Shown piece after piece: positions 44,055 through 61,867 of a stretch of 64,000 nucleotides of DNA; within the stretch, counting starts at the first letter, position 1; every line of letters begins with the position of its first letter. The notes beneath the pieces are model-generated. The model was not told the origin of the DNA. It saw only the letters and a list, made by a program, of their open reading frames with translations, and did no database searches. Position numbers and translations under genes: made by a program. The stretch is from a virus: positions 23,584 to 87,583 of IMG/VR virus record IMGVR_UViG_3300042503_001430, one strand, 5' to 3'.

Positions 44055-44056
44055 TT

Positions 44057-44719: not shown

Positions 44720-44721
44720 CT

Positions 44722-47746: not shown

Positions 47747-48319
47747 ATGCCAATACTTCGTTATCTCTACGAGAGATTTTTCAGAACGAAGTCGAAAGAA
47801 CCTTTAGACCTTAACAAATCTCAGGGTATTCTCATTCGACCTGATGGTAGTTGGATTGTGGCGCCACATAACACGCCGCAAGTCCAACACCATCCATATG
47901 CTCCGCAGAATCCTTATGGTGTGGGGTTGCCGCCTGTCCTGGGCAAAGACCTTAACTGGCTATCACAAGATAACAATCGACTTGATGTTTTGAATTTCCC
48001 ACCAACGTACTTTCCTCATGCACAAGAGCTGTACTCAAAGCTTGAGCAGTGTCTTGATCGTGACATCATCACCAGTTGTGTACACAAGCAGACACAGAAC
48101 AATATCTACATTCTTGCGATAGAGCTGCCATGTGGTCCTGATCACTGCGAAAACATGCGACGATTTAAGCAGTTCATCAAGGCGATGGAAGAGATGTACG
48201 ACTTCAAAGTGATTCAGCAAGAGCGAATAAATAGTTCTGTATGTAACGAACAATCATACTCGGTGGTGTTTGAGTATGACCCCAAAAATGACCTATTGAA
48301 GAACCTCAAAGGAGATTAG
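47747..48319 (+). CDS. Long member of the small paralogue family
   Basis: 190 residues. The first 90 are Pro- and Asn-rich and unlike the others. The last 100 (LYSKLEQCLDRDIITSC, IYILAIELP, FKQFIKAMEEMYDFKV, YSVVFEYD) show the layout of the ~80-residue family expanded in this region: helix, strands ending hydrophobic, helix with aromatic at its end, final strand. It is the first copy and is followed 1 nt later by the second. Confidence 0.55.
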   Translation: MPILRYLYERFFRTKSKEPLDLNKSQGILIRPDGSWIVAPHNTPQVQHHPYAPQNPYGVGLPPVLGKDLNWLSQDNNRLDVLNFPPTYFPHAQELYSKLEQCLDRDIITSCVHKQTQNNIYILAIELPCGPDHCENMRRFKQFIKAMEEMYDFKVIQQERINSSVCNEQSYSVVFEYDPKNDLLKNLKGD

Positions 48320-48320
48320 T

Positions 48321-48554
48321 ATGACAAGCAATATTGATATAGAACTCGACAACCTCAGACGTACAGAACAAATTAAGGATTGGAGCTCCTCTCTTGGATA
48401 TGGAGAAGCTGAATATACAATCGAATTCAAGCCAGAGAGCGTTCCAAACCTGAAGCTCTTAGCTAAGAAGCTTAACGAAAAGTACGGCGCTCGCCATTTT
48501 ACCAAACATAACGATAATGGCACAATCGCAGTAAGATTTGTGGTTACTCTTTAG
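48321..48554 (+). CDS. Small paralogue family member
   Basis: 77 residues after GGAG. ELDNLRRTEQIKDW (helix 1), YTIEFKPES (strand), LKLLAKKLNEKYGA (helix 2), GTIAVRFVVTL (last strand). The clearest short copy: helix 2 ends in KY as in most members. Function unknown. Confidence 0.6.
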   Translation: MTSNIDIELDNLRRTEQIKDWSSSLGYGEAEYTIEFKPESVPNLKLLAKKLNEKYGARHFTKHNDNGTIAVRFVVTL

Positions 48555-48582
48555 TTGACATAACAGAAAAAGCTGGTATTCT
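48555..48582 (+). promoter_or_regulatory. Sigma70-type promoter
   Basis: TTGACA (48555-48560), 16 nt, TATTCT (48577-48582). Predicted start near 48589, 6 nt before the next ATG. Confidence 0.55.
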
Positions 48583-48594
48583 ACCAGAAGAATC

Positions 48595-48879
48595 ATGCTC
48601 AAAAGCTCAAAAGAGAAATCTGTTGAGAAGCTAGAAAAGGAACTGTACGTAGCACACAAACGTGGTTACATTTTCAGATGCACACACATTTCTGAAATGA
48701 CCAGTTTCGGTGATTCGAGTGAGATTGTAGGGGTCGAGGTTCTGTTCTCTGATGACGTATCGATTGAATCAATACGAAAGATCAAGACGTACATAGAAAA
48801 GACCTACGATTTTGATGTTGATAATACAACATACATGGATCTCTCTAACGCAGTGAAGATCATTATTGTGAGGTACTGA
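48595..48879 (+). CDS. Small paralogue family member
   Basis: 94 residues. LEKELYVAHKRGYIFRC, VEVLFSDDVS, IRKIKTYIEKTYDFDV, VKIIIVRY. Nearly no mRNA leader is predicted from its promoter. Closest to the next copy, which it precedes by 1 nt. Confidence 0.6.
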   Translation: MLKSSKEKSVEKLEKELYVAHKRGYIFRCTHISEMTSFGDSSEIVGVEVLFSDDVSIESIRKIKTYIEKTYDFDVDNTTYMDLSNAVKIIIVRY

Positions 48880-48880
48880 T

Positions 48881-49165
48881 ATGCAAACCGAAATATCAAC
48901 AGATGCGCTGTATTCAAGAGTGCGAGATTTTGAGCACGAATTGAAGCGTGTTCATGCAACTGGTCACATCATCAAAACCCTCAACATAAAAAAGTATGAC
49001 GACGATGGCTCTTCTATCAAGGGTGTTGAGCTTCTGGTTGACGCTCGTGTGTCCAAGAATCAGATCAAGCAGATTGTAGACTACATTAAGAAGGTTTACA
49101 GCTTCGATACGCTCTTTCACGCAAAAACACATTCTATCAAGATTTGGTACAAGAGCATCAAGTAA
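48881..49165 (+). CDS. Small paralogue family member
   Basis: 94 residues. FEHELKRVHATGHIIKT, VELLVDARVSKNQIKQIVDYIKKVYSFDT, SIKIWYKSI. Tandem with the previous copy. The ends of helix 1 (GHII) and helix 2 (YIKKVY) are the family landmarks. Confidence 0.6.
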   Translation: MQTEISTDALYSRVRDFEHELKRVHATGHIIKTLNIKKYDDDGSSIKGVELLVDARVSKNQIKQIVDYIKKVYSFDTLFHAKTHSIKIWYKSIK

Positions 49166-49365
49166 TGGCAAAGATTTACTCCTTCGAGGAGTACAAGATC
49201 CGGCGATTAATCAGAGATAATCAAGAAGACCTCCTGTCAAAAATCGAGTTTTGTGATAAGAATGGGTATCTCTGGACTGATCATTACTCAATAAAGATGA
49301 TCGGTGACAGAATTGAAGAGTTGAAGAAAATGCTAGAGGACTTGAAAAATGAAAAACCTTCATGA
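49165..49365 (+). CDS. Hypothetical small protein
   Basis: 66 residues, starting one base into the previous stop (TAATG). IYSFEEYKIRRLIRDNQEDLLSKIEFCDKNGYLW and a long C-terminal helix. Not a clear family member (no second strand-helix-strand). Overlaps the transaminase gene by 17 nt. Confidence 0.5.
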   Translation: MAKIYSFEEYKIRRLIRDNQEDLLSKIEFCDKNGYLWTDHYSIKMIGDRIEELKKMLEDLKNEKPS

Positions 49366-50626
49366 TGTAGCTTCGAAATACATTCTTGTTGACCACTTTG
49401 ACATGATCTATTCGATAGATTCGAGTAAAGGTAACTTCTTATACGACAAGAAGAATGATCGCATGTTACTCGATGCGTTCAGCTTCATAGCGAGCAACCC
49501 GATTGGTCATAACCACCCAAAGATGTCTGACCCCGACTTTGAGAGAAAGCTTCTCAGAGCAGCGAAGGTGAATCCATCTAACTCAGATATTCTCACCGAA
49601 GAGTATGTAGAGTTTCTTGAGACGTTCTTCGATATTGCAGTGCCTTCATACTTCAGAGACTCGTTCTTTATTGCCGGTGGGTGTCTTGCGGTAGAAAATG
49701 CTCTCAAGACTGCATTTGACTGGAAATACCGAAAGCTCAAAGAGCGTGGTATAATGGTAAATCCAAACCACATGAAGGTCATACACTTCAAGAACTCGTT
49801 TCATGGTCGTTCTGGGTATACCATGACGCTCACTAATACCGCAGACCCACGTAAGTATCAGTTCTTTCCTAAGTTTGAAAATTGGCCACGATTGTGTGCA
49901 CCTGCTGTTCATGAAAAATACACAGCACAAGAGCAAGCAGAGCGAGATCACCGATTCTATCTTAATGCTCTTGATGTTGCAGAGTGTCAGGGTCATGAGT
50001 GTGCTGCGATAATCATTGAGCCAATTCAGGGTGAAGGTGGTGATAACCATTTCACGAAACAGTTTCATCAGAACTTGAGAAAAATTGCTGATGAGAAAGA
50101 GATGTTGCTTATTTACGATGAGGTACAATCTGGCGTTGGTTTGACTGGTACAATGTGGGCACACCAACTCTACGATGTTCAACCCGACATCATCTCGTTC
50201 GGCAAGAAGATGCAAGTCTGTGGCATTCTGAGTGGTAACAGGGTGCGTGAAGTCAAAGACAACGTATTTGAAGAGAAGTCGAGAATCAACTCAACATGGG
50301 GCGGCAACCTGGTTGATTTTGTTCGCTCACAACGATACCTCGAAATCATACGAGAAGAAAACCTAGTCGAGAATTCTCGTGTTGTGGGTGACTATCTTCT
50401 CACCAAGATGAAAGGCCTGGGTGTACAAAACGCTCGTGGTGCTGGTTTGATGTGTGCATTTGATATGCCAGACGCACAGCAGCGTGATGACTTGGTGAAG
50501 CGATGCATACAAAATGGTCTGTTTGTTCTTGGATGTGGCACAAGAAGTGTTCGTGTGCGACCATCACTCACTTTTAGCACACAAGAATGTGACTTGATGA
50601 TAGATATTCTGAAGAAAAGCATGTAG
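49349..50626 (+). CDS. L-lysine 6-transaminase-like class III aminotransferase
   Basis: 425 residues. The N-terminus KYILVDHFDMIYSIDSSKGNFLYD and FSFIASNPIGHNHPKM is characteristic of lysine epsilon-aminotransferase (Lat). Further: FHGRSGYTMTLTNT, IIIEPIQGEGGDNHF, DEVQSGVGLTGTMW (cofactor Asp) and SFGKKMQVCGI, whose Lys should bind PLP. Lat turns lysine and 2-oxoglutarate into allysine and glutamate. Such an enzyme is very unusual in a phage. Starts inside the previous gene. Confidence 0.8.
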   Translation: MKNLHDVASKYILVDHFDMIYSIDSSKGNFLYDKKNDRMLLDAFSFIASNPIGHNHPKMSDPDFERKLLRAAKVNPSNSDILTEEYVEFLETFFDIAVPSYFRDSFFIAGGCLAVENALKTAFDWKYRKLKERGIMVNPNHMKVIHFKNSFHGRSGYTMTLTNTADPRKYQFFPKFENWPRLCAPAVHEKYTAQEQAERDHRFYLNALDVAECQGHECAAIIIEPIQGEGGDNHFTKQFHQNLRKIADEKEMLLIYDEVQSGVGLTGTMWAHQLYDVQPDIISFGKKMQVCGILSGNRVREVKDNVFEEKSRINSTWGGNLVDFVRSQRYLEIIREENLVENSRVVGDYLLTKMKGLGVQNARGAGLMCAFDMPDAQQRDDLVKRCIQNGLFVLGCGTRSVRVRPSLTFSTQECDLMIDILKKSM

Positions 50627-50629
50627 TGA

Positions 50630-50944
50630 ATGCAACAAAAGGTACTTGAGCTGTTTACAGAATTGCAGAGAGCACGAAAGCTGAAGTTCATTCAAGGTAT
50701 CGATTGCCTTGTGATGAACGATCATCCTATGCTCACTCGTGATACGAGTCTTTTTGCGATGTCTGACGTTTCAGTACCTCACCCCAATACAGTGAAAATG
50801 TATGTGAGGTTCGACCCTAGCGTTTCATATGGTCAAATACTTGACATCAAACGATATGTGGAGATCAAGTATGGATTCAAGTGCTCTCTTTGTGAATGGT
50901 CTATTCCCTCAAGATTGGACATAACAGTGAATATAAATATCTGA
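50630..50944 (+). CDS. Small paralogue family member
   Basis: 104 residues. LFTELQRARKLKFIQGI (helix 1), VKMYVRFDPSVSYGQILDIKRYVEIKYGFKC, LDITVNI. The ATG is 3 nt after the transaminase stop. A loop of about 30 residues is inserted before the second strand. A late promoter for the next gene lies in its last codons. Confidence 0.58.
   Translation: MQQKVLELFTELQRARKLKFIQGIDCLVMNDHPMLTRDTSLFAMSDVSVPHPNTVKMYVRFDPSVSYGQILDIKRYVEIKYGFKCSLCEWSIPSRLDITVNINI
50932..50939 (+). promoter_or_regulatory. Late promoter TATAAATA
   Basis: Exact T4 consensus. Predicted start 50945, 2 nt before the ATG. Confidence 0.72.
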
Positions 50945-50946
50945 CT

Positions 50947-51804
50947 ATGAAGAGCTTTTTAGAGTATTCACGTCAAATTGACGAGAAGCAAATTCAGTAC
51001 GGCAAGAACGCTAACTACGGACAGGTGGTGTTCTTTGCTGGCGGTGCTGCATCAGGTAAAGGCTTCGCAGTATCTAACTTCATCGACACAACCAAATTCA
51101 AAGTGTGGGACGTTGACGATCTGAAAATCAAGCTCACCAAGATGCCGAGCATGGTTGCTAAGTACCCTGGTATCGACAAGCTGAAGCTCAATAATCCAGA
51201 AGATGTTAGACAGCTACACCTCATAGCAAAAAACGAAGGCATACCAGAAAAGCAACTCAAAGCATGGATTGGTAACTTTCATTCACCCGATACTTTGCCG
51301 AACCTTCTGTTCGACATGACGTTCAAGAGCATAGAAAACGCATCGTTCATCATACCAGACCTCATCAAAGCTGGCTACAAACCACAAAACATTCACATCA
51401 CCTGGATTCTTGCAAACTACAACGTAGCTGTACAGAGAAACAGAATGAGAGAACGTGTGGTGCCAGATGACATTATGTTACTCACACACTCTGGCGCTGC
51501 GATGACGATGAAAGACATCTTGAGTGGTTCATTACCAAAAGAGATCAACGGCAGTTTTACGGTTGTTCTCAACAATCCAGAAGAAGTGTCGTTCTACACT
51601 CGAAGTGATGATGAAAAATCAAAAATAACGAAACCATCGAAATCCTCTGTCGTAAAAGACTTTACCTACATCACAGTAAAGAAAGCCGGTGCGCCTATGC
51701 AAACATGGCGAGAGATGCAATCACAAATTCGTGAAAAGATATTTTCATGGGTCATGAAGAATGCACCTCAATCTGATGAGGTTAAGGGTGCATATTCGTC
51801 TTGA
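50947..51804 (+). CDS. Capsid-targeted P-loop kinase-like protein
   Basis: 285 residues from the ATG behind the late promoter. Leader variant MKSFLEYSRQIDE-K with the cleavage-type site IDE. Walker A is AGGAASGKG (residues 31-39), then VWDVDDLKIKL (acidic motif after strand 2), ITWILANYNVAVQRNRMRER (lid-type Arg). This fits Zeta-toxin/kinase-like P-loop proteins of phages. An injected kinase could act on nucleotides or a host protein. Confidence 0.65.
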   Translation: MKSFLEYSRQIDEKQIQYGKNANYGQVVFFAGGAASGKGFAVSNFIDTTKFKVWDVDDLKIKLTKMPSMVAKYPGIDKLKLNNPEDVRQLHLIAKNEGIPEKQLKAWIGNFHSPDTLPNLLFDMTFKSIENASFIIPDLIKAGYKPQNIHITWILANYNVAVQRNRMRERVVPDDIMLLTHSGAAMTMKDILSGSLPKEINGSFTVVLNNPEEVSFYTRSDDEKSKITKPSKSSVVKDFTYITVKKAGAPMQTWREMQSQIREKIFSWVMKNAPQSDEVKGAYSS

Positions 51805-52039
51805 ACAGCTTCAAAATCAACTAAGACAAGCGCAAGAGCTTGAGTACATCATACATCTCGAATTTCAGAGAAACTATGTCGTCGTGCACTTTGCACAGCA
51901 CGTGTTGTACAAGACCATTCATGAGTTAGTACGACACATAAACCTCTCATATAAAGATGTTGCGTGGGTGCCTAGTTCTCTATACCTAGTGAATCCAACA
52001 AAACGAATAACCATTCACTACAAACGAGATCACTCATGA
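51776..52039 (+). CDS. Small paralogue family member
   Basis: 87 residues, start uncertain (ATG 51776, or GTG 51788 after AAGG). LEQLQNQLRQAQELEYIIHL, YVVVHFAQH, HELVRHINLSYKDV, ITIHY. Overlaps the end of the leader-tagged kinase gene by 29 nt. Confidence 0.55.
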   Translation: MRLRVHIRLEQLQNQLRQAQELEYIIHLEFQRNYVVVHFAQHVLYKTIHELVRHINLSYKDVAWVPSSLYLVNPTKRITIHYKRDHS

Positions 52040-52299
52040 GTAAAGAGCATGATCTCTGGCGAGAGATAGACGAAGCTGTGGTGAACGGATATGTCTACCA
52101 TCTCGAAGAGGTTTGTGAAACTCATGGCACCTCCCGCATCTGTAATTATGGAACAAAGATTTGGTTCAACGGCCGAGTGAATGCTGAACAGTGTCAAAAA
52201 ATTGCTCTGTACATTCGGCAGAAGTACGATCTGAAAGTGGATTATCACACAGAATTTTGTCTCGTTATTTGGCATTCCATGTCAAATCAGCCATCATAA
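52036..52299 (+). CDS. Small paralogue family member
   Basis: 87 residues, ATGA overlap with the preceding copy. LWREIDEAVVNGYVYHL, TKIWFNGRVNAEQCQKIALYIRQKYDLKV, FCLVIWHS. Strong match in helix 2 (YIRQKY). Confidence 0.6.
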   Translation: MSKEHDLWREIDEAVVNGYVYHLEEVCETHGTSRICNYGTKIWFNGRVNAEQCQKIALYIRQKYDLKVDYHTEFCLVIWHSMSNQPS

Positions 52300-52351
52300 A
52301 AATCGAATAAAAAATTGCATCCACATTATTTTCTGATACCATTTTCGAAGT

Positions 52352-52771
52352 ATGTCAAGCTTCGATAAACTCTTAGGTATAGAACCACAACTCGACGCAG
52401 AGAAGCGTGAACGTGCACCGTCACCGAATGCTTCTCTCTATCGAAGAAAGTACCTACGAGCGAAAAAGAGAAACCCGATTAGTCTGCTGTTCAAAAATGC
52501 AAAACGCAGAGCACGAGAAAAGGGTCTTGAATTTTCAATAACGAAAGATGATGTGCCTATGCCGAAGGTGTGTCCGATTCTTGGTATTCCTCTGTTTTCT
52601 GCTGAGGGGTATGCGAAAGACAACTCACCTTCTATCGACAGAATAGACAGCACGAAGGGGTACGTGCCTGGTAATGTGATGATCATTTCGTTCAGAGCAA
52701 ACACACTCAAGAACGATGCAACACGAGATGAGCTACAGCGAGTTTTAGACTTCTTATGCAAAACAACATAG
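52352..52771 (+). CDS. HNH-like endonuclease
   Basis: 139 residues. CPILGIPLF (zinc or fold Cys), SPSIDRIDSTKGYVPGNVMIISFRANTLKNDAT. This SxDRIDxxKGYxxGNV...RAN..KN pattern defines a phage HNH-related nuclease family. The first His of HNH is not obvious, so activity is uncertain. It may be a free-standing mobile nuclease inside the small-gene cluster; TTGCAT and TACCAT upstream give a weak promoter. Confidence 0.6.
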   Translation: MSSFDKLLGIEPQLDAEKRERAPSPNASLYRRKYLRAKKRNPISLLFKNAKRRAREKGLEFSITKDDVPMPKVCPILGIPLFSAEGYAKDNSPSIDRIDSTKGYVPGNVMIISFRANTLKNDATRDELQRVLDFLCKTT

Positions 52772-53019
52772 AACACGAAACCAACCACTTTCATTCACTA
52801 ATACTTGAGCTTCAAGAAGCGAAGCGTCTTGGTCACATCTTTCAGATTCAATTTCTCTCTCATGACTTATTGGTGCTGATGAATAGCGACACCACGACTG
52901 CAAAAATAACCGAGGTTGCCGATTACATTAGCAAGAAGTATCGCATCTACACCGAAGCATCTATCAGCGCAAAGACCATCACGATATTTGATGTTTACAT
53001 GCTCGATCCAAAAGTATGA
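52756..53019 (+). CDS. Small paralogue family member
   Basis: 87 residues, overlapping the HNH gene by 16 nt. LILELQEAKRLGHIFQI, LLVLMNSDTTTAKITEVADYISKKYRIYT, KTITIFDVY. All family landmarks are present. Confidence 0.6.
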   Translation: MQNNIEHETNHFHSLILELQEAKRLGHIFQIQFLSHDLLVLMNSDTTTAKITEVADYISKKYRIYTEASISAKTITIFDVYMLDPKV

Positions 53020-53273
53020 GAGATTTAACAGACCTAAAGTTTGCCCTACAAAAAGCAGCAGAGATGACTCTGATCGACAATTTTTCGGTTCAGATGCACT
53101 ACCTCGACATTGACTTTCATTTAGGACACGAAAATCGCACACCCAGTTCTGTAGATAGAATTCTGATTCTTCGTGATTTCATCAGAATGAACTATCGAGA
53201 AGTTGTCGCTGCGGATTACATGCCTTTACTCAACCGATTGAGATTGTATGGAAATTTCCAACGAATTAAGTGA
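53016..53273 (+). CDS. Small paralogue family member
   Basis: 85 residues, ATGA overlap. LKFALQKAAEMTLIDNF, LDIDFHLG, ILILRDFIRMNYREVV, then LRLYG. Helix 1 uses Ala where others have Glu. It overlaps the next copy by 26 nt in a different frame. Confidence 0.55.
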   Translation: MRDLTDLKFALQKAAEMTLIDNFSVQMHYLDIDFHLGHENRTPSSVDRILILRDFIRMNYREVVAADYMPLLNRLRLYGNFQRIK

Positions 53274-53490
53274 ACTCACAACAGAGCTTGAGAAAGCATA
53301 CTCACGAGGATTGATAGTTTACTACAGTCTAAATAGGTGTGTAATCGACGCCAACATTGAGTATGTCGATTTGCACATAACACTATGCAGTCGTGATTTT
53401 AATCGAGAAGAGCCGTTGAGAAAGTACCTGCGAGATAGGTACGGAACCTTGGTTCGCTCAATATTGATAGAACCCCACACAAGAAACTGA
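53248..53490 (+). CDS. Small paralogue family member
   Basis: 80 residues. LTTELEKAYSRGLIVYY, VDLHITLCSRD, LRKYLRDRYGTLV, ILIEP. ELEKAYSRGLI is nearly the family consensus for helix 1. Confidence 0.58.
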   Translation: MEISNELSELTTELEKAYSRGLIVYYSLNRCVIDANIEYVDLHITLCSRDFNREEPLRKYLRDRYGTLVRSILIEPHTRN

Positions 53491-53502
53491 CAGGGCACAC
53501 AC

Positions 53503-53883
53503 ATGACAACAAAAGAGAAGGTACAGAAGCTGGTTTACGTACATGACCTTTCTAAGATGAAGATTGAAGCTCGATTGCCAGAGATGGTGCGAGATGTTGA
53601 GCTTGATGACGTTACGTTGAAGGTGAATATGCCATCGCACGAAGAACGTGCAGCGTCTATTGCTTGGGATGCTTGCTACATTCAGTATCTCAATAGCAAT
53701 CCAAGCGGAACCCTCGAAGATTTTGATGCGAACCTCAACATGGTTGCATACGAGCAGATTACCAGAGATGTGCAGAGCAAGATTCCACAAGAAGTAGACT
53801 TGAATGAATTGCGTGAAATTCACCGTGTTCAATTCTTGAACTTGACCAGAGTTGATTTGAAGCGACAGATTGACAATGAGTAG
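53503..53883 (+). CDS. Hypothetical protein, paralogue of the gene at 61965
   Basis: 126 residues. KVQKLVYVHDLSKMKI, then SIAWDACYIQYLNSNPSGTLEDFDANL and IPQEVDLNELREI. The YL..NP.GTLEDF block and the flanks are shared with 61965-62342, showing an old duplication. All-helical second half. Function unknown. Confidence 0.6.
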   Translation: MTTKEKVQKLVYVHDLSKMKIEARLPEMVRDVELDDVTLKVNMPSHEERAASIAWDACYIQYLNSNPSGTLEDFDANLNMVAYEQITRDVQSKIPQEVDLNELREIHRVQFLNLTRVDLKRQIDNE

Positions 53884-53888
53884 CACCC

Positions 53889-54122
53889 ATGCGGTCGTTT
53901 ACGCATCTTGAACTTCAGCTTGTTCTGGCAAAAAAGTGTAAACTCATCAAAGACTTTGAGTACATAAAGAATCGTGACTTCATTCTTGTGAGGTTCTTGT
54001 CTGCTACGACACAAGAACAGAAGTATGAGTTGCGAGAGCATATTCGACAAGCATATCGAGACGTTATAAGTGTTACTCTGACACCACACGACAACGCACT
54101 GTACATACGTTACTCTTCATAA
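53889..54122 (+). CDS. Small paralogue family member
   Basis: 77 residues. LQLVLAKKCKLIKDFEYI, FILVRFLSATTQEQKYELREHIRQAYRDVI, ALYIRYSS. Its last codons carry the late promoter of the following leader-tagged peptidase gene. Confidence 0.6.
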   Translation: MRSFTHLELQLVLAKKCKLIKDFEYIKNRDFILVRFLSATTQEQKYELREHIRQAYRDVISVTLTPHDNALYIRYSS

Positions 54123-54125
54123 ATA
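54118..54125 (+). promoter_or_regulatory. Late promoter CATAAATA, predicted start at the ATG
   Basis: Predicted start 54131, the A of the next ATG; leaderless late mRNA expected. Confidence 0.72.
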
Positions 54126-54130
54126 TCTGT

Positions 54131-54997
54131 ATGAAATCGTTCAAAGAGTTTCTTACAGAAGCACTTATTGATGTTGATGCGTCAGATATTAATCTGATCT
54201 ACGCACCTATGGCAAAGCCTATGCGAGAACTTGCAGAGGTTTGGAAACGTCATTTCAAAGACCTCACAAGCAGCGACCTAGACCTTCGGAATCTTGCACA
54301 AACCCGATTACAACGTGAACTGAATGAGGTGCGAAAGAAGTATCAGCCCGTGTTTGGTCCACTGAAAGTGATTGACTCATCGAAACTCAAGTCAGAGAAC
54401 GCAAAGAAAGCACATGCAATAAACCCAGTGAAGATCAATGTGTACTTAATTGGTACACCGAGCATGTCAAATTCATACAACGTACAGCACAAGGAGATTA
54501 ACATCTGTTTGCCGTATGGTGTTGCAGAAGCGATGATGGATCGTATCAACACTGTACCTCAGTATCAGTTACCGATGCTACAGAACGAAGTATCGATGTT
54601 GAAGCACAAGACAACCATTCGTCATGAACTCACCCACTGGATAGACGATTCACTTCACAACCTGTACCTGACAAAAGCACTGTTTCGTGCTCACGAACTG
54701 GTAAAAGTAGACAAAGAAGGTGCGGTAAAATACTACAATGATGCTGTGAAGCATGGGTTCGATGACATTTACCTATCGCCCGTAGAAGTCACGCCGATGG
54801 TGAATCAGATAGCAGAACTGAAGCGACGACTTGGCAACAAAAAATACGACAACCTCACCTGGGCACAGGTCATGATACTTTTACCTTCGCTCGATTCATT
54901 GAATAGAAAACACGGCGCAGCATGGCGCAAAATCATGTTCACTCGACTTGCTAGAGAAAACCTCATAGGTAAAAAGTTCAGAGATCAGTTGTCGTGA
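54131..54997 (+). CDS. Capsid-targeted zinc metallopeptidase (second)
   Basis: 288 residues. Leader MKSFKEFLTE-A. Zinc motif HELTH at 165-169 (IRHELTHWIDD), then SPVEVTPMVNQIAELK about 50 residues on, with Glu as candidate third ligand. KINVYLIGTPSMSNSYN may line the site. It differs in sequence from the peptidase at 5493 except for leader and zincin motif. Predicted to be packaged and injected. Overlaps the next gene by GTGA. Confidence 0.72.
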   Translation: MKSFKEFLTEALIDVDASDINLIYAPMAKPMRELAEVWKRHFKDLTSSDLDLRNLAQTRLQRELNEVRKKYQPVFGPLKVIDSSKLKSENAKKAHAINPVKINVYLIGTPSMSNSYNVQHKEINICLPYGVAEAMMDRINTVPQYQLPMLQNEVSMLKHKTTIRHELTHWIDDSLHNLYLTKALFRAHELVKVDKEGAVKYYNDAVKHGFDDIYLSPVEVTPMVNQIAELKRRLGNKKYDNLTWAQVMILLPSLDSLNRKHGAAWRKIMFTRLARENLIGKKFRDQLS

Positions 54998-55308
54998 GCA
55001 TCGAGCCACCACCACAATCAAAACCAAAAAAGCAATTAAGTGACCTCGAAACTGAGTGTCGAAATGCATATCGCCACGGGCTGATAGAAGAGTATGCTTG
55101 TAACCCATACCTTGCGAAGCCGTATATATTCATACGGTTTCATAAGCTCACCGAACAATCAACAAAGGTTGATTTGGTTGAGTACATCAAAGCAACTTAT
55201 CATGTGAAAGAGATTGAATTCGTCGCTGACGGCAGTGCGCTCTACATCGTATATGATTACTGGTCACGATACGAAGACCACAACGACAACGACGGCGAGA
55301 TTGATTGA
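54994..55308 (+). CDS. Small paralogue family member, GTG start
   Basis: 104 residues from GTG (GTGA overlap). LETECRNAYRHGLIEEY, YIFIRFHKL, LVEYIKATYHVKEI, ALYIVYDYW. N-terminal Pro/Lys linker and acidic C-terminal tail extend the fold. Translationally coupled to the injected peptidase gene. Confidence 0.6.
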   Translation: MSIEPPPQSKPKKQLSDLETECRNAYRHGLIEEYACNPYLAKPYIFIRFHKLTEQSTKVDLVEYIKATYHVKEIEFVADGSALYIVYDYWSRYEDHNDNDGEID

Positions 55309-55328
55309 CACAAGCTCATCAGTGAGCT

Positions 55329-55583: not shown

Positions 55584-55606
55584 GTCGTTGGTTCCATATC
55601 CAAGAA

Positions 55607-55635
55607 AAAACACCTTCGACCAGAGGGTGTTTTGT
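55607..55635 (+). terminator. Rho-independent terminator
   Basis: AAAACACCTTC / GAGGGTGTTTT: 11 pairs (one G-T) around loop GACCA, T run at the end. It also overlaps the -35 area of the following promoter. Confidence 0.78.
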
Positions 55636-55643
55636 GCTATACT
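55635..55643 (+). promoter_or_regulatory. Extended -10 promoter
   Basis: TGC-TATACT. Predicted start near 55650, 2 nt before the ATG at 55652. Confidence 0.6.
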
Positions 55644-55651
55644 GAAGGTGT

Positions 55652-56005
55652 ATGGAATCAACGTATTTGGAAATAGCTGGCATAGCACTCTTTTTGCTGT
55701 TGTTCTCACGGCGAATATTTGACTTGTCTTTGAGCATCTTCATCACATCATCAACCCTGATGGTGTCGCTGCTTGCTATCTCTATCAGTGCGCTCATTCT
55801 CGCAATTACCGCAGTGCCTGTGTTCTTGATGGGGTGTAAGATTGCAGAGAACGTCTATACACAATCAACCATACCACACGGCGTCATAGCTGTCTGTGGC
55901 ATGAAAGTTCGAGCACCGAAGATAGTTCACTCTCGTAGTGTTGAGTTTCGTCAATCACGAGAGTGGCCACATGTAGCACCAACATCAGCACCAGGTAAAT
56001 ACTAA
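55652..56005 (+). CDS. Membrane protein with two or three spans
   Basis: 117 residues. Hydrophobic segments: EIAGIALFLLLFSRRIF and a long run FITSSTLMVSLLAISIS then ALILAITAVPVFLMG. The polar end has AVCGMKVRAP. No signal for export by itself. Possible superinfection or membrane-modifying protein. Confidence 0.55.
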   Translation: MESTYLEIAGIALFLLLFSRRIFDLSLSIFITSSTLMVSLLAISISALILAITAVPVFLMGCKIAENVYTQSTIPHGVIAVCGMKVRAPKIVHSRSVEFRQSREWPHVAPTSAPGKY

Positions 56006-56006
56006 G

Positions 56007-56564
56007 ATGGTACGAGGACTTTTTCGAAACATCGTCGCATACGTAGCATACCGAACTACCAAGAGGTATAACACACTGAAGCTACCTTCGCTTCCGCCTA
56101 GCTACTGGGACAAAGACGAAATAATGCTTCATGCTGTCATGACACTGGTTGTCGATTTCGTCGAGATTGAGTGTTCATTCATGGAGCTTGACTCACCCTT
56201 CTCGTTCAAAGAGAAATTATGGTTGCGTCTGCCGTGGTTCTTGAGAAGTGATAACTTGATTCGTTCAAGAGAGCGTGGTCTCAAGCATCTCAAATCTCTG
56301 ATCTCGATGTATGAAGACGGCATGAAAGATTCATCTGGACACCCACGAATAATTCGAGATGCATACTTGTGGTGGAAAGACATCAGACCACAAACAGTGA
56401 AATCTGTAGAAATGCTCAATCAGAAACTACAACTAGATGATTGTGACGCAGAAGAAGTCAAAGCTGCATTTGACATAATACAAAAGAAAGAAAAAGAGAT
56501 TGAGCATCAAGACACAAAAATGCTGAAGAAAGTTATAGAAGCTCGCACCTTTATGTGGACATAA
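56007..56564 (+). CDS. Hypothetical protein, phage-type
   Basis: 185 residues. MLHAVMTLVVDFVEIE, KEKLWLRLPWFL, SRERGLKHLKSLISMYEDG and AYLWWKDIRP suggest a helical protein; I recall similar sequences in large phages without function. Begins 1 nt after the membrane protein gene. Confidence 0.5.
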   Translation: MVRGLFRNIVAYVAYRTTKRYNTLKLPSLPPSYWDKDEIMLHAVMTLVVDFVEIECSFMELDSPFSFKEKLWLRLPWFLRSDNLIRSRERGLKHLKSLISMYEDGMKDSSGHPRIIRDAYLWWKDIRPQTVKSVEMLNQKLQLDDCDAEEVKAAFDIIQKKEKEIEHQDTKMLKKVIEARTFMWT

Positions 56565-56566
56565 CT

Positions 56567-56821
56567 ATGAGAACCAAGTCGCAAGAAATCTTAGAACAAC
56601 TCAGAGAAGCTGAATCGCAAGGGTTGGTGAAGAAGGTGTTTGTACACCCCAAGAAATCATCGACCGATTTTCTCGTCACGTTTTTAGAATCTACCGACAT
56701 TGTGACGAGAGAACGCCTGGTACACTTGTTTCGAACCAAGTACCTCTCTCATGCTCAGTTGGCAACACCATACAAAGATCGTCTTCTTGTGTGCGTCAAA
56801 GATGCAATCGTTAGTGCATGA
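56567..56821 (+). CDS. Small paralogue family member
   Basis: 84 residues. ILEQLREAESQGLVKKV, DFLVTFLES, LVHLFRTKYLSHA, LLVCVKDA. A GTG four codons upstream is less likely than the ATG. Helix 2 is LFRTKY rather than YIxxKY. Confidence 0.55.
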   Translation: MRTKSQEILEQLREAESQGLVKKVFVHPKKSSTDFLVTFLESTDIVTRERLVHLFRTKYLSHAQLATPYKDRLLVCVKDAIVSA

Positions 56822-57084
56822 AGAAGCGCATACCTGATCTCATAGAAGAACTCATACGAGCACGAGAGACGTATAATGACTATGTGTTTGCAGTAAAGCA
56901 CACAAAGTACAGTCAACCTCTTTTGTGTATAACTGATGAGGTTCAGTTTCGCATTACAGCTAATGTCACCGAGCAGCAAATACGACAGATCATCAAGTAC
57001 ATTCGCAATTCTTATGAAAATATCTATTCGGTTCAATGTAATAGAGACTACTCAATGATTGTAGCTCTGTTTGCTGAAAAGTAG
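56818..57084 (+). CDS. Small paralogue family member
   Basis: 88 residues, ATGA overlap. LIEELIRARETYNDYVF, VQFRITANVTEQQIRQIIKYIRNSYENI, MIVALF. Helix 2 (YIRNSY) is a close match. Confidence 0.6.
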   Translation: MKKRIPDLIEELIRARETYNDYVFAVKHTKYSQPLLCITDEVQFRITANVTEQQIRQIIKYIRNSYENIYSVQCNRDYSMIVALFAEK

Positions 57085-57087
57085 CTT

Positions 57088-57095
57088 CATAAATA
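57088..57095 (+). promoter_or_regulatory. Late promoter CATAAATA
   Basis: Predicted start 57101, one nt before the ATG at 57102. Confidence 0.7.
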
Positions 57096-57101
57096 GCACG
57101 T

Positions 57102-58286
57102 ATGAAGTTATCAAAACGTGCTCAAAAATTGGGGTGCTCACCTATTCGAAGTCCACTCAAGCCGAGTGATACTTCGGTGCATGTACATCGATTGAATATT
57201 GGTCAGCCTGATATTCACTCACCCAAAGAGTTTATCGATGCGTTACATGCGTTTTCTAACCCCGTTGTTGCATACGATTCTGCACAAGGTAACGCAGACC
57301 TCATTTCTGCGTGGGTACGAACCATCAACACCCAATACAAAACAGCTCTTGCACCAGAGAACATGGTAATCACATCAGGGTCTAGTGAAGCACTCACATT
57401 CGCATTCAATATCTGCTGTGATGCTGGCGACAATATTCTCGTATTTGCGCCGACGTATGCAAACTACACTGGGTTTGCAACCATGACTGGTATCAACTTG
57501 AACGTCATTCAGTGCTCATTTGATTCTGGGTTTCATGCGCCTGTGAATAAGCACGAGATTGAGAAGTGCATCACCAAGAAAACGAGAGCAATTCTCATAT
57601 GCAATCCAAACAATCCAACAGGTACGGTATTCACAGAAGCTGAGATTCGCACGTTGCTTGACATATGCGAACAACATGATCTGTTTTTGATTGTTGATGA
57701 AGTGTATCGTGAGTTTGTCTACGATACGAAACCGACAAGTGCGTTAGAAATTGCACCACACAGTGATAGAGTGGTTGTTGTCGATAGCATCTCAAAACGA
57801 TACAGTCTCTGTGGTGCTCGTATTGGTTGCATCATCTCACATAACGAAAACTTTATTGCAGCAGCTACCAATTTTGCCGGCACTCGTGTGTCTGCACCTA
57901 TTGTTGAACAGATTGCAGCAGCGCACATGCTCAATACCATACCCGACAATTACTTGACAGAAACAGTGCGTGAGTATGCAGAACGTAGAGCAACCCTCAT
58001 ATCGAACCTTAGCACTATACCTGATGTAGAGGTGTGTGTGCCTGAAGGTGGGTTTTACGTGTTTGCAAAACTGCCGGTAAAAGACAGTGCAGACTTCTGC
58101 AAGTTCATGCTCGGTGAATTCTCACACAACGGTAACACGGTAGCTCTCGCACCTGCACATGGATTTTTCATCTCAAAGCCACAATCGAAGAGCTACGTAA
58201 GAATTGCATTTGTGGTATCGGTGCAAGATTTGATTAGTGCGACTGATGTATTACGACACGCTCTTGAAGCATATCAGAATCGATAA
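57102..58286 (+). CDS. Class I/II aminotransferase (aspartate-aminotransferase-like)
   Basis: 394 residues. LNIGQPDIHSP, SGSSEALTFAFN, CNPNNPTGTVF (cofactor Asn), VDEVYREFVYD (Asp/Tyr), SISKRYSLCGARIGC with PLP Lys in SKRY, and C-terminal VRIAFV (substrate Arg). Complete active site. Its late promoter is odd for a metabolic gene and suggests use late in infection. It has no capsid leader (MKLSKRAQKLG). Confidence 0.88.
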   Translation: MKLSKRAQKLGCSPIRSPLKPSDTSVHVHRLNIGQPDIHSPKEFIDALHAFSNPVVAYDSAQGNADLISAWVRTINTQYKTALAPENMVITSGSSEALTFAFNICCDAGDNILVFAPTYANYTGFATMTGINLNVIQCSFDSGFHAPVNKHEIEKCITKKTRAILICNPNNPTGTVFTEAEIRTLLDICEQHDLFLIVDEVYREFVYDTKPTSALEIAPHSDRVVVVDSISKRYSLCGARIGCIISHNENFIAAATNFAGTRVSAPIVEQIAAAHMLNTIPDNYLTETVREYAERRATLISNLSTIPDVEVCVPEGGFYVFAKLPVKDSADFCKFMLGEFSHNGNTVALAPAHGFFISKPQSKSYVRIAFVVSVQDLISATDVLRHALEAYQNR

Positions 58287-58985
58287 TTACTGAATATTTT
58301 TGTCGATCTTAGTCATTGTCTGCTTGTACAGTTTCAGGGCAGCTTTCAACTCTTGTGCATTGAATGTGGTGCTGGTTGCAGAAACCACTTTCTTGAGTTG
58401 TGCTATTGCCCAGAGAACGCTGTCACGACTTTCCCAGAAAACCATATCGTCATTGTCATTAGAGAAGCTGAGTATCATTTTTCTGCCAGAACCTCTAACT
58501 TGCATAATACCCTTGACAAGATACTCGTTGCCGAGGTTGTTCTGTTGTCTTCGAATAACAAGAAAGAATTCATTCTCACCTTTGTTTAGTTTGGTGAATG
58601 GCAACCTAGCTTCAGACACATTCGATGTGATGCGAATAACATCTGCGTCAAAATTTTTCCTGAAAAGTTCAAACACTTCAGGATACGTGATCGTTTTTCG
58701 CTGTGGAAATGGCGCTGTATTATCTTGGTAATCATCGTCATCTTGGTAGGGCGACGAGTGTTGTGTGGCGTTGGTTGTCGCTAAGTGTGAAAGCACATCT
58801 CGTGCTACGTTGATCTTTTGCATCATGACAACACTGCCACCTTTGTCGGGGTGGTTTGCAATCGCAGCTTTCTTGTATGCGTCTTTGAGTTGATCTGGTG
58901 TGAAGTGTGGTGAGAGACCGAGAACCTTGAGTGCATCGCTCGGTGTCATGGTCGCTTCAATGAGGTAATGAATGAATCGTTTCAT
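58287..58985 (-). CDS. Capsid-targeted J-domain protein
   Basis: 232 residues on the minus strand. Leader MKRFIHYLIE-A. Residues 14-60 form a J domain (DALKVLGLSPHFTPDQLKDAY, HPDKGG with HPD at 45-47) that should stimulate DnaK-type Hsp70. The C-terminal 140 residues are unique (VIRITSNVSEARLPF, GIMQVRGSGRKMILSF). An injected J protein could recruit the host chaperone early. Late promoter 5 nt from the ATG by prediction. Confidence 0.78.
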   Translation of the reverse strand: MKRFIHYLIEATMTPSDALKVLGLSPHFTPDQLKDAYKKAAIANHPDKGGSVVMMQKINVARDVLSHLATTNATQHSSPYQDDDDYQDNTAPFPQRKTITYPEVFELFRKNFDADVIRITSNVSEARLPFTKLNKGENEFFLVIRRQQNNLGNEYLVKGIMQVRGSGRKMILSFSNDNDDMVFWESRDSVLWAIAQLKKVVSATSTTFNAQELKAALKLYKQTMTKIDKNIQ

Positions 58986-58995
58986 AGTAGTCTAC

Positions 58996-59003
58996 TATTT
59001 ATG
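58996..59003 (-). promoter_or_regulatory. Late promoter CATAAATA (minus strand)
   Basis: Predicted start 58990, 5 nt before the ATG of the J-domain gene. Confidence 0.68.
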
Positions 59004-59067
59004 TGGGGTGAATTTTGTACGAAAATCCACAATGGCAGAAAATTGTGCTTCCACAAAAATATAGGTA

Positions 59068-59096
59068 TTGACAGAAACGATCTCGTTTGATACACT
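59068..59096 (+). promoter_or_regulatory. Promoter of the tRNA cluster
   Basis: TTGACA (59068-59073), 17 nt, TACACT (59091-59096). Confidence 0.7.
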
Positions 59097-59135
59097 AAGT
59101 AGTACAGTGTGCCACTTAGTGGCTCCACTCAGTAT

Positions 59136-59207
59136 GTTTCCATCGTCTAGTGGTTAGGACACCCGCCTTTCACGCAGGTAACACGGGTTCGACTCCCGTT
59201 GGAAACA
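59136..59207 (+). tRNA. tRNA-Glu (TTC)
   Basis: Acceptor GTTTCCA/TGGAAAC, T arm CGGGTTCGACTCCCG, anticodon TTC at 59169-59171. The anticodon stem has one C-A mismatch. CCA is not encoded. Confidence 0.9.
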
Positions 59208-59228
59208 CACACATACATAATGATATAC

Positions 59229-59304
59229 GGAATCGTAGTTCAGTGGTTAGAACGCTCCCCTGTCACGGGAGAGGTCGTGGGTTCAAGTCCCATCGGTTCC
59301 GCCA
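59229..59304 (+). tRNA. tRNA-Asp (GTC)
   Basis: Acceptor GGAATCG/CGGTTCC, anticodon GTC at 59262-59264, loop CTGTCAC; GCCA end encoded. Confidence 0.93.
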
Positions 59305-59314
59305 TTTTTTATAT

Positions 59315-59389
59315 CGGGGTGTAGCTCAGCCCGGCTAGAGCGCCTGTTTTGGGAACAGGAGGTCGTAAGTTCGAATCTTGCTACCCCGA
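59315..59389 (+). tRNA. tRNA-Pro (TGG)
   Basis: Acceptor CGGGGTG/TACCCCG, anticodon TGG at 59350-59352 in loop TTTGGGA. CCA is not encoded. Confidence 0.92.
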
Positions 59390-59394
59390 CACAC

Positions 59395-59469
59395 TGGCGA
59401 GTAATTCAGTGGAAGAATGTCTGACTGTTAATCAGATCGTCGTAGGTTCGATCCCTACCTCGCCAGCCA
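59395..59469 (+). tRNA. tRNA-Asn (GTT)
   Basis: Acceptor TGGCGAG/CTCGCCA, anticodon GTT at 59427-59429, loop CTGTTAA; GCCA end encoded. Confidence 0.93.
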
Positions 59470-59470
59470 C

Positions 59471-59478
59471 AATAAATA
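59471..59478 (+). promoter_or_regulatory. Late promoter AATAAATA
   Basis: Directly after the last tRNA. Predicted start 59484, 5 nt before the ATG at 59489. Confidence 0.65.
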
Positions 59479-59488
59479 CCCTCTACGT

Positions 59489-60028
59489 ATGAAACGCTTC
59501 AAGCACTACATCGCAGACCTCACCGAATCAAAAGCATCTGACGCTTACGCTGCTGCACTGCAACAATTTCACGGCAACTCATCAAACTACATCAGTCGCA
59601 AAACCAAGAAAGATCCAACAGACCTTACACGAGATGAGATTAGAGCATTTAAGAAGGTGCTTGATGCGAACAGAGCCAAGTTCAAATCTACACAAGAACT
59701 CTACAACGCTGTTGCAGACCACTACGATATACCCGTTGCAACACTTCAGCACGTTGAAAAGACATTGAAAGAATCAACAGAGCAAGAACGCAAAGACTAC
59801 ATCAAGAGTCTTCAACTCACCCTTACCGCAGACGACCTCACTGATGCACAACTGAAAGACTTCGCAAGACGCAGTAATGGTGGTCCAAGTTCGCCGAATC
59901 AAATTTCAGCTAAAGCAGACGTTGACGCTATGTCACCAAATCACCTCAAGCAAGTAATCGCACACAAACGAGTACACGTGTTCTTTAAGAACCATGCACG
60001 ACAACGACTTTCTGGAAACTGGAAATAA
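59489..60028 (+). CDS. Capsid-targeted protein, unknown domain
   Basis: 179 residues. Leader variant MKRFKHYIADLTE-S with cleavage site LTE at 11-13. The body is helical: KASDAYAAALQQFHGN, LTRDEIRAFKKVLDAN, ELYNAVADHYDIPVATLQHVE and HVFFKNHARQRLSG. Charged throughout. No family recognised; predicted internal protein because of leader and late promoter. Confidence 0.62.
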   Translation: MKRFKHYIADLTESKASDAYAAALQQFHGNSSNYISRKTKKDPTDLTRDEIRAFKKVLDANRAKFKSTQELYNAVADHYDIPVATLQHVEKTLKESTEQERKDYIKSLQLTLTADDLTDAQLKDFARRSNGGPSSPNQISAKADVDAMSPNHLKQVIAHKRVHVFFKNHARQRLSGNWK

Positions 60029-60046
60029 CCCCCATCACACATCATC

Positions 60047-60301
60047 ATGATAGCACCCACCCTCATTCACGAACTCTCAGAAGCACGACAACGTGACCTG
60101 TTGCAGTTTAAGATATTCAATGAGTATGAGCTTCAGATCACGTTCTATGGGGTGTCACAAACGACCGTAGAAAGAATTCAACATTATATTCAAACTCACT
60201 ATGACTACCGAACCACACTCTTTATCGACTATAGCATCAGCACCGTGATGGTGTACACGTACAGTACGATAAAGCTCAACCCGCCGGAAATATGGATATG
60301 A
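60047..60301 (+). CDS. Small paralogue family member
   Basis: 84 residues. LIHELSEARQRDLLQFKIF, LQITFYGVSQTTVERIQHYIQTHYDYRT, TVMVYTYS. Lies between two leader-tagged genes and overlaps the second by 4 nt. Confidence 0.6.
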   Translation: MIAPTLIHELSEARQRDLLQFKIFNEYELQITFYGVSQTTVERIQHYIQTHYDYRTTLFIDYSISTVMVYTYSTIKLNPPEIWI

Positions 60302-60702
60302 AACGCTTTACGCAATACCTTACTGAAGCTCTTGACCCCGTTGAAGTACTAGGTCGCAACCTTGCTGCAAAAGCTAGGTACAAGCAGTTGCACCAGTCGA
60401 ATCCACAAGCAGCACACGAGTTTCTACAGAGATATAAAGCTCGCACTGAAGCACACCAGAAGCTCTACACGCTACTGAAAGACCTTATCTCACAACACCT
60501 CTCTCGCACCTCAAAGCTCAACATCACGTCAGGGTCAAACTATGCTATCGCTGTGAAGAATGTATCTGATGCGGTACGTGATCAGTTTCCAGAATTGAAG
60601 CACCAACAGATTGCACGAGCACTGAACGACCTAAATGCAGACACCGAGACCATGACGAGCATGTTGATTGATGTGTTGTTTTCAGACTTGAAGAAGTTGT
60701 AG
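60298..60702 (+). CDS. Capsid-targeted protein, unknown domain
   Basis: 134 residues from the ATG giving MKRFTQYLTE-A (an ATG two codons upstream is rejected). The body is helical: VEVLGRNLAAKARYKQL, AAHEFLQRYKARTEAH, LYTLLKDLISQHLSR and a final helical domain QIARALNDLNAD. Part of a late operon. Function unknown. Confidence 0.62.
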   Translation: MKRFTQYLTEALDPVEVLGRNLAAKARYKQLHQSNPQAAHEFLQRYKARTEAHQKLYTLLKDLISQHLSRTSKLNITSGSNYAIAVKNVSDAVRDQFPELKHQQIARALNDLNADTETMTSMLIDVLFSDLKKL

Positions 60703-60711
60703 AGAGATCGT

Positions 60712-60915
60712 ATGAGACCGACACACTACACGATAACTGAAACTTCAGATGGCATCAGGGTTGTTCACCACGATGCAATCTTGGTAGCGATTATCACCGC
60801 TAGTAACGTGGTGTTGTACTATGACAATGACCAGCTCAAAATGCTTGGTCAGTTTCATGATGATGATGCACTACTGCAAGCACTCACAGTAAAGCACGAC
60901 ACGATGAAGTTGTAG
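60712..60915 (+). CDS. Hypothetical small protein
   Basis: 67 residues. Beta-rich (DGIRVVHHDAILVAIIT, NVVLYY), then an acidic helix. No family landmarks. It stands between a leader-tagged gene and another small paralogue. Confidence 0.45.
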   Translation: MRPTHYTITETSDGIRVVHHDAILVAIITASNVVLYYDNDQLKMLGQFHDDDALLQALTVKHDTMKL

Positions 60916-60918
60916 ACG

Positions 60919-61158
60919 ATGCGAACCTCGTTTCCACAATTAGTGCAAGACCTACAGAGAGCGTATGAGCAGAACTTAATCGCTAATGTAGTCATTCCAC
61001 ACTTGTCGCTCTATCCACAAAACATTACGTTCAACACCACCCACCCCATGTCACAAGAGACTCAAGACAAGCTCATCGAGTACCTAGAGACAGAGTGTGA
61101 TAACGTCATCGTCGCATATGCAGGTGAGCACAAGGTTCTGATACGAGTGAGACCATGA
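60919..61158 (+). CDS. Small paralogue family member
   Basis: 79 residues. LVQDLQRAYEQNLIANV, QNITFNTTHPM, LIEYLETECDNVIV, KVLIRVRP. Helix 2 ends in EC instead of KY. ATGA overlap with the next gene. Confidence 0.57.
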   Translation: MRTSFPQLVQDLQRAYEQNLIANVVIPHLSLYPQNITFNTTHPMSQETQDKLIEYLETECDNVIVAYAGEHKVLIRVRP

Positions 61159-61334
61159 CACACCTTGAAGCAACACTGATCAAAGCACTGAGAGACATCG
61201 GCTGCACATGGCGACGAATAGCAGAAATTCACGCAGAATCCACAAACAGTACAGACACCTCACAAGAACGTGGAAGAGAGCTATGTGAACAAGCTGCACA
61301 AGTTCTTAACCTAGACTCACTCGACGATGAGTAA
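61155..61334 (+). CDS. Small helical protein
   Basis: 59 residues starting on the overlapping ATGA. LIKALRDIGCTWRRIAEIHAE has helix-turn-helix-like spacing; the rest is acidic. Might be a small regulator; low evidence. Confidence 0.45.
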   Translation: MTHLEATLIKALRDIGCTWRRIAEIHAESTNSTDTSQERGRELCEQAAQVLNLDSLDDE

Positions 61335-61352
61335 CCACAAAAAATCCACAAA

Positions 61353-61381
61353 TTGACAAAACCAGTCGAGTTTGGTATACT
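61353..61381 (+). promoter_or_regulatory. Consensus sigma70 promoter
   Basis: TTGACA (61353-61358), 17 nt, TATACT (61376-61381). Predicted start near 61388, 2 nt before the ATG. Confidence 0.75.
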
Positions 61382-61389
61382 AACACCAT

Positions 61390-61602
61390 ATGCTGCCGAC
61401 AGACTTAGACAGAGCACTCAAACTAGCACTCAGAGAACGAGTCATTACCCACATGCGTAAGTACCAGTCTACGACGATTGTTCATTTCCATGAATCGGTG
61501 AGTGATAAGAACAAACGAACGCTACAAACCTACCTCTCAGTGCGATACAACTATACCACCTCTCTCAGTGCTCTAGGTGACAAGATGTACATTTACCACT
61601 AA
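61390..61602 (+). CDS. Small paralogue family member
   Basis: 70 residues, the shortest copy. LDRALKLALRERVITHM, TIVHFHESVSDKNKRTLQTYLSVRYNYTT, KMYIYH. Landmarks intact without linkers, so it is a good model of the minimal fold. Confidence 0.6.
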   Translation: MLPTDLDRALKLALRERVITHMRKYQSTTIVHFHESVSDKNKRTLQTYLSVRYNYTTSLSALGDKMYIYH

Positions 61603-61618
61603 ACACAGGTAGACAGCT

Positions 61619-61867
61619 ATGAACGAGACAAGTCCACTAAACGGTATACTTATCACAGAACTCAATAGAGCAAAGAGTCACAACCTTATTGCATACACCA
61701 TAACCGGCACCGACCAAACCATCTACATCGACTTCGTAGACCGTAGCATACAGAAAGAAAACATACTGAAGTTTCAGCAGTATATCATAGACAACTACAA
61801 CTATAAGACCCTTGCATACCCTGACAGCCGAGGCATGATCGTCTTCAATGAGCACCTTCAGAAGTAA
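61619..61867 (+). CDS. Small paralogue family member
   Basis: 82 residues. LITELNRAKSHNLIAYTI, IYIDFVDRSIQKENILKFQQYIIDNYNYKT, GMIVFNEH. The last copy in the window. The next 97 nt hold no gene. Confidence 0.6.
   Translation: MNETSPLNGILITELNRAKSHNLIAYTITGTDQTIYIDFVDRSIQKENILKFQQYIIDNYNYKTLAYPDSRGMIVFNEHLQK

Follow-up and report, generated by a model that had tools for sequence, protein, structure and literature searches.

A tandem array of diverged mini-domain paralogs beside the baseplate genes of a T4-like virus

The window analysed here, 64,000 nucleotides of DNA corresponding to positions 23,584–87,583 of the 87.6-kb IMG/VR virus record IMGVR_UViG_3300042503_001430, carries between positions 47747 and 61867 a dense series of small genes, which an earlier note on this DNA had described as about 18 divergent copies of one small-protein family. 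Our computational analysis shows that these copies share common ancestry. All 18 genes were present as open reading frames (ORFs), all on the + strand, and membership is supported for 17 of them, with the remaining gene, 48321, being a probable member. The cassette holds every family copy of the 87.6-kb record. Related arrays were found in further uncultured viruses, and comparison between viruses indicates that the copies diversified long ago and have since been maintained.

Results

Common ancestry of the array genes

Pairwise BLASTP identities between the copies are low, reaching 35% for 48595 and 48881, 32% for 52036 and 48595, and 27% for 61619 and 60047, with most others near 20%. Such values, together with a simple pattern of helices and strands, would also be expected of convergent look-alikes, i.e. 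unrelated small alpha/beta proteins with a generic pattern in common. Leave-one-out hidden Markov models (HMMs), run against the 472 window ORFs of at least 40 amino acids, ranked 15 of the 18 copies first with E-values from 9e-13 to 6e-5; 53016 also ranked first, yet marginally (E 0.067), and 47747 and 48321 were missed among these ORFs. The 16 core copies were also split at random 40 times, and HMMs of one half were used to look for the rest; mean detection at E<0.01 was 95% (minimum 75%), without a single false positive in the 40 runs, whereas 20 random sets of small window ORFs, used as a control, gave 0% detection. Because of this difference, the family does not represent a chance pattern. 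In addition, an HMM built from 52 members of other viruses recovered 16 window copies at E<=3e-6. These results refute the look-alike explanation for 16 or more of the 18 copies, and we regard it as extremely improbable for the array.

The two remaining genes were resolved to different degrees. Using the HMM of other-virus members, which include the ortholog of 47747 in L064, 47747 was matched at E 6.5e-4, and this L064 ortholog was itself matched by the family HMM at E 1e-5. For 48321 the same model gave a non-significant E-value (0.18; best non-member, 0.26). In hhalign profile-profile comparisons covering 63 small-ORF groups outside the family seeds, 47747 came first (P 1.9e-4) and 48321 second (P 4.4e-4), both aligning in register over 58–59 columns spanning helix 1, the hairpin and helix 2, compared to 12–28 columns only for the next-ranked groups. 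The count of about 18 copies in one family therefore stands for 17 genes, and 48321 is retained as probable. The proposed constant length of about 70–105 amino acids does not extend to 47747, a 190-amino-acid protein in which an N-terminal helix and a low-confidence proline-rich linker precede the family domain. A further candidate, 55329, was rejected (about 25 aligned columns, P 0.007).

A confident fold without a described family

AlphaFold2 modelling of 53889 with 59 aligned members yielded a mini-domain with a predicted local distance difference test score (pLDDT) of 94.3 and the order alpha-beta-beta-alpha-beta-beta (H4-16, E22-26, E31-35, H42-55, E59-64, E70-75); the family domain comprises about 75 residues. 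The model of 47747, built from five sequences only and with a mean pLDDT of 70 that rises to about 90 in the C-terminal domain, showed six elements in the same order (H92-104, E110-115, E121-128, H133-151, E154-162, E169-177). In both copies modelled, the order of helices and strands thus agrees with the one read from the sequences, except that the strands number four, a hairpin following each helix, instead of the one or two strands after the first helix and the single final strand initially described.

Foldseek searches of the PDB with the 53889 model found nothing at E<0.001; the best-ranked structures were eukaryotic uL23-type ribosomal proteins at non-significant values (E 0.011, TM ~0.38, 5 Å rmsd). 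The 47747 model, which is weak outside its C-terminal domain, likewise gave none at E<0.001. By sequence profile, the best match was a weak one to ribosomal protein eS24 (hmmsearch, E 0.2). Comparing 59 members with Pfam, PHROGs, NCBIfam and PADLOC revealed isolated weak matches only (best E 7.8e-4, one member each), and a description of the family was not found in the literature on phage paralog arrays or related genomes. In line with the earlier statement that no such family was known, the family is without a match in Pfam, PHROGs, NCBIfam, PADLOC and the PDB. In BFVD, three uncharacterized proteins of uncultured Caudovirales phage, A0A6J5MC11, A0A6J5M6Y5 and A0A6J5M578, have the same predicted fold as the query (TM 0.87, 0.80 and 0.74, respectively); A0A6J5MC11 is 31% identical to it (E 5.6e-5), and all three are probable family members.

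Related arrays occupy the same position in other uncultured viruses

Directly upstream of the array, at 43140-46146, lie baseplate tube cap, wedge and hub-type genes (gp48, gp53 and hub), and genes for a DnaB-like helicase and ribonucleotide reductase lie elsewhere. On the basis of this gene content, the source virus is classified as a T4-like myovirus. The nearest named relatives by hub protein, among them Synechococcus phage BUCT-ZZ01, Caulobacter phage Cr30 and Delftia phage PhiW-14, are 21–28% identical.

We traced relatives via the neighbouring aminotransferase, ribonucleotide reductase and DUF1937 genes. Profile searches of other phage genomes, as had been proposed for checking the family, revealed arrays in five further uncultured lineages: G022 (L046), G023 (L047), G024 (L048), G032 (L064) and the near-identical trio G021/G036/G037 (L056, L066-L068). 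An iterated search of 3334 ORFs settled at 61 hits, which a clear gap separates from the next candidate (E 1.5e-7 versus 0.0078), and L064 contributes about ten further members. The position of the array is conserved in the relatives, following gp48, gp53, the hub gene and DUF1937/DUF6899 genes, and copy number varies by lineage from about 5–7 in G021/G036/G037 up to 18 in the window. No array was found in G025-G031, which have the aminotransferase in common, or in G034, and profile searches of eight cultured phages, T4, SPN3US and phage G gave no family match. Single-copy tblastn against 50,697 phage records returned zero matches even at E 10; neither single copies nor the genes for the baseplate hub and the zeta-toxin-like protein, used as back-translated queries, yielded relatives among viral contigs; and a DUF6899-neighbour scan of genome contigs returned contigs of metagenome-assembled genomes, none with the family.

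In cultured relatives the gp5 hub-lysozyme gene follows the hub gene with at most one or two small genes in between. The gp5-like gene of G022, recognised by visual inspection of the N-terminal sequence, is located only about 30 kb downstream, beyond the array and many small genes. Because of this displacement relative to the cultured relatives, the array appears to occupy a variable accessory region by which the baseplate genes are interrupted.

Array members and their orthologs

The array starts with 47747..48319, whose divergent C-terminal family domain spans approximately residues 92-177 (AlphaFold2, hhalign and HMM), and the divergent probable member 48321..48554 (ortholog in L046). These are followed, with leave-one-out E-values and orthologs in brackets, by 48595..48879 (9e-13; L046, L047, L048), 48881..49165 (8e-10; L046, L048), 50630..50944, which has a longer beta1-beta2 region (1e-7; L046), 51776..52039 (9e-6; L046, 58% identical), 52036..52299 (6e-5; L046), 52756..53019 (2e-7; L046), 53016..53273 (E 2e-7 with an HMM from relatives only; L046), 53248..53490 (2e-6; L047, L048), 53889..54122, the copy with the high-confidence model (L047, 55% identical), and 54994..55308 (2e-10; L046). 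Orthologs were not found for 56567..56821 (5e-7) and 56818..57084 (1e-7), and 60047..60301 (2e-5) and 60919..61158 (1.5e-8) are without a clear one. The last members are 61390..61602 (4e-8) and 61619..61867 (6e-9).

Reciprocal best hits between the window and L046 are collinear, clear pairs being 37–57% identical. Other groups of orthologs extend to L047, L048 and L064, while for distal copies orthologs are not found or unclear. In a tree of 68 members, which is built on few columns and leaves the deep forks unresolved, 45 genome-label changes were counted versus 42.2 after shuffling, so that labels are no more clustered than by chance. Because of this lack of clustering, most duplications would predate the split of the viruses. 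Nonsynonymous divergence (dN) between family orthologs was 0.37-0.68 for clear pairs and 0.86 for the 53889 pair, with adjacent baseplate genes at 0.39-0.69. The ratio omega of nonsynonymous to synonymous divergence (dS) was 0.16-0.35 where dS was measurable, dS being saturated otherwise, and orthologs are thus computationally shown to be under purifying selection. At strain level, dN/dS in G021/G036/G037 was uninformative because the sequences are nearly identical. Since ortholog divergence matches that of the baseplate genes, the diversification appears to be ancient and now maintained.

Column statistics further separated scaffold from surface. Among paralogs, hydrophobic core columns are 47% identical and exposed-like columns 11% (composition expectation 7.5%), compared to 68% and 35% among orthologs, where exposed denotes columns that are rarely hydrophobic and is not taken from coordinates. 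Conservation is highest in columns with hydrophobic or aromatic residues (A14, Y58, L7, L11, I20, F38, I54 and I75); these statistics revealed no conserved polar site and no conserved cysteine, and the predicted isoelectric point (pI) of the members ranges from about 5 to 10 (median 7.35). Each copy thus seems to keep its own surface on a common scaffold. No other observation speaks as strongly for roles that are distinct and fixed: surfaces that are specific to a paralog and kept among its orthologs argue against ongoing rapid diversification. The earlier suggestion of diversified binding specificity fits these variable paralog and conserved ortholog surfaces, but collinear orthologs and unclustered tree labels indicate that any such diversification is neither recent nor ongoing.

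Promoter motifs and targeting tags

The motif NATAAATA is the late promoter of T4-like cyanophages (PMC2984593). In the genome, an ATG follows within 10 nt at 12 of 21 NATAAATA sites, versus 2.1 in shuffles. In the array region the motif precedes 50944, 54131, 57102, 58287 and 59489, all non-family genes, and a further site, at 48226, falls within 47747, the ATG behind it being non-coding; scanning identified no late motif directly 5' of any copy. A rough scan for capsid-targeting patterns found a tag on neighbouring genes and none on window copies. This pattern of motifs suggests that the array may lie outside the late program. By consensus scan, a sigma70-like extended -10 site (TAGACA-16-TACACT; 46152..46179, +) was detected just after the late baseplate gene, with counterparts after the hub gene in L046 and L047 (TAGACA-16-TA[TC]A[CG]T) and a weaker version in L048. 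Two further such sites lie directly before copies: TTGACA-16-TATTCT (48555..48582, +), 12 nt upstream of the ATG of 48595 and similar at its L046 ortholog, and TTGACA-17-TATACT (61353..61381, +), 8 nt upstream of the ATG of 61390.

The spacing of these motifs is short in several cases. In the window, L046, L047, L048 and L064, NATAAATA is found 3-10 nt ahead of a start codon far more frequently than in shuffles, so that late mRNAs would be almost leaderless, and several sigma70-like sites lie 6-12 nt before an ATG. As for the tags, starts like MKxFxxFLTEA are found in at least ten proteins (3361, 4590, 5493, 7491, 10354, 32097, 54131, 58287 on the - strand, 59489 and 60292) and also in 50944. 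They resemble the capsid-targeting sequences of T4 and may mark a large cargo of injected proteins; the tagged proteins include a DnaJ-domain protein (58287) and a weakly zeta-toxin-like kinase (50944). In relatives, L046:14989, 15303, 15976 and 16376 and L079:10348 have a common N-terminal tag, MDINLFRKSLASKQ, probably a lineage-specific targeting sequence.

A companion family and neighbouring genes

A second small-protein family accompanies the array. One copy of about 126 amino acids lies inside it (53503..53883, +), and another at 61965..62342 (+). The family was present in 8/8 contigs with an array and in 0/13 records without, its copies in relatives being L046:10562, L047:14942, L048:15191, L064:11423 and L056:18731. 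It has no match in PHROG or NCBIfam, and homology of the companion to the array family was rejected (P 0.057).

Within the array, 52352-52771 encodes an HNH/endonuclease VII-like protein, possibly a homing endonuclease, which the arrays of relatives are without. The gene at 49349-50626 encodes a phage L-lysine 6-transaminase-like aminotransferase (TIGR03251, 520.3 bits versus a cutoff of 520.8) that is 70–79% identical in array-bearing relatives, and a second pyridoxal phosphate (PLP)-dependent aminotransferase (57102-58286; NF005744), with an ortholog in L046, stands behind a late-type motif. Four tRNA genes (Glu, Asp, Pro and Asn) are clustered in the cassette at 59136-59469. Beside or downstream of the relatives' arrays, L047:11312, L048:11349, L064:6031 and L079:6877 encode proteins of 420-450 amino acids with N-terminal hydrophobic segments, the first two being 45% identical; such proteins were not seen in the window. 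In G021, the ribonucleotide reductase gene is apparently interrupted by an intein, the downstream part (L041:12713-13375) starting with an intein-like C-terminus (...ENGCVSHN).

Discussion

We tentatively interpret the array as the product of an ancient radiation, within a lineage of uncultured T4-like myoviruses, of a phage-specific mini-domain whose copies may serve as early or mid-infection binding modules with their own stable partners in host takeover or anti-defence, a reading that we place somewhat short of an even chance. According to this proposal, host sigma70 RNA polymerase would transcribe the copies early or mid infection, and their small products would work by binding, without enzymatic activity. 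Each would have a stable partner of its own, which could belong to the host machinery, to its defences or to the phage itself, so that the array would constitute a repertoire for takeover or anti-defence. An enzyme, or a single ligand common to all copies, appears unlikely because there is no conserved polar residue and no common charge, and exposed residues are variable. The role in takeover or anti-defence is proposed because of the putative early promoters and the accessory location. Several observations weigh against it. Sigma70-like sites are fewer in the region than in shuffles (21 versus 31.8) and are consensus matches, not mapped transcripts; few window copies or operon starts lie directly behind one, and the others would need read-through. 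Adjacency to baseplate genes also fits a virion role, and the null result in PADLOC, which covers defence systems, is uninformative on anti-defence. A more specific version, in which the mini-fold radiated into about 18 specific, retained binders that form a multi-target takeover or anti-defence panel and work with the companion as a dedicated partner family, is conceivable but doubtful.

A place of the copies in the virion, as minor parts of its head, baseplate or tail, is an unlikely though serious alternative, given that the array follows gp48, gp53 and the hub gene and that paralog family B of phage SPN3US was detected in the virion by mass spectrometry (PMC5694885). Against such a role, no late motif directly precedes the copies, window copies show no capsid-targeting-like tag, cultured relatives assemble without the family, and the SPN3US genes concerned are larger and without profile match. 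Tight packing, overlapping genes, collinear orthologs and the strict co-occurrence with the companion would also suit a hetero-oligomer, in which paralogs and companion join in one complex with each copy at a fixed position. We consider this rather improbable: a copy number that varies among lineages and distal copies without orthologs are awkward for a fixed complex, and companion co-occurrence may reflect only the common ancestry of array-bearing viruses. The resemblance to uL23-type proteins and eS24 could hint at a set of regulators that associate with the ribosome or bind RNA or DNA, each with a different specificity, but with matches that are not significant and structurally distant, a pI that is not consistently basic and no conserved surface residues, this idea is the least probable of the three.

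Whatever their role, the copies form a family that the searched libraries lack. Its fold is predicted with confidence, a single virus can carry up to 18 copies, and groups of orthologs have been retained in viruses that diverged from one another. Should the copies act as specific binders, as in our preferred interpretation, each conserved surface would lead to a phage target, and the array would represent a natural set of mini-binders on one scaffold. More generally, near-invisible paralogy at about 20% identity can hide among small unknown phage genes and can be resolved via the arrays of related viruses.

Expanded paralog sets have been described in other large phages. Paralog family B of SPN3US comprises about 20 virion head proteins (gp83, gp138-154 and others) encoded in tandem (PMC5694885). 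Like that family, the array is a large tandem set of diverged, function-unassigned paralogs in a large myovirus, with a copy number that varies among relatives (PMC5694885); unlike it, the array consists of much smaller genes, those in the SPN3US region having about 275-500 codons and virion-located products, and the family profile had no match at E<=1 in the SPN3US genome. Bacillus phage G carries about 35 zinc-ribbon copies (PMC7824862), which are likewise a lineage-specific expansion of one family in a large phage, but the array family has no conserved cysteine set and its profile does not match phage G. Some of the T4 internal proteins IPI-III and Alt act in host takeover, Alt modifying host RNA polymerase (PMC9026906); in contrast to the array copies, these proteins carry capsid-targeting sequences, and T4 is without a profile match. 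Expansion of paralog sets in large phages is hence precedented, while the protein family, its array in T4-like viruses and its size class are new within the searched sources.

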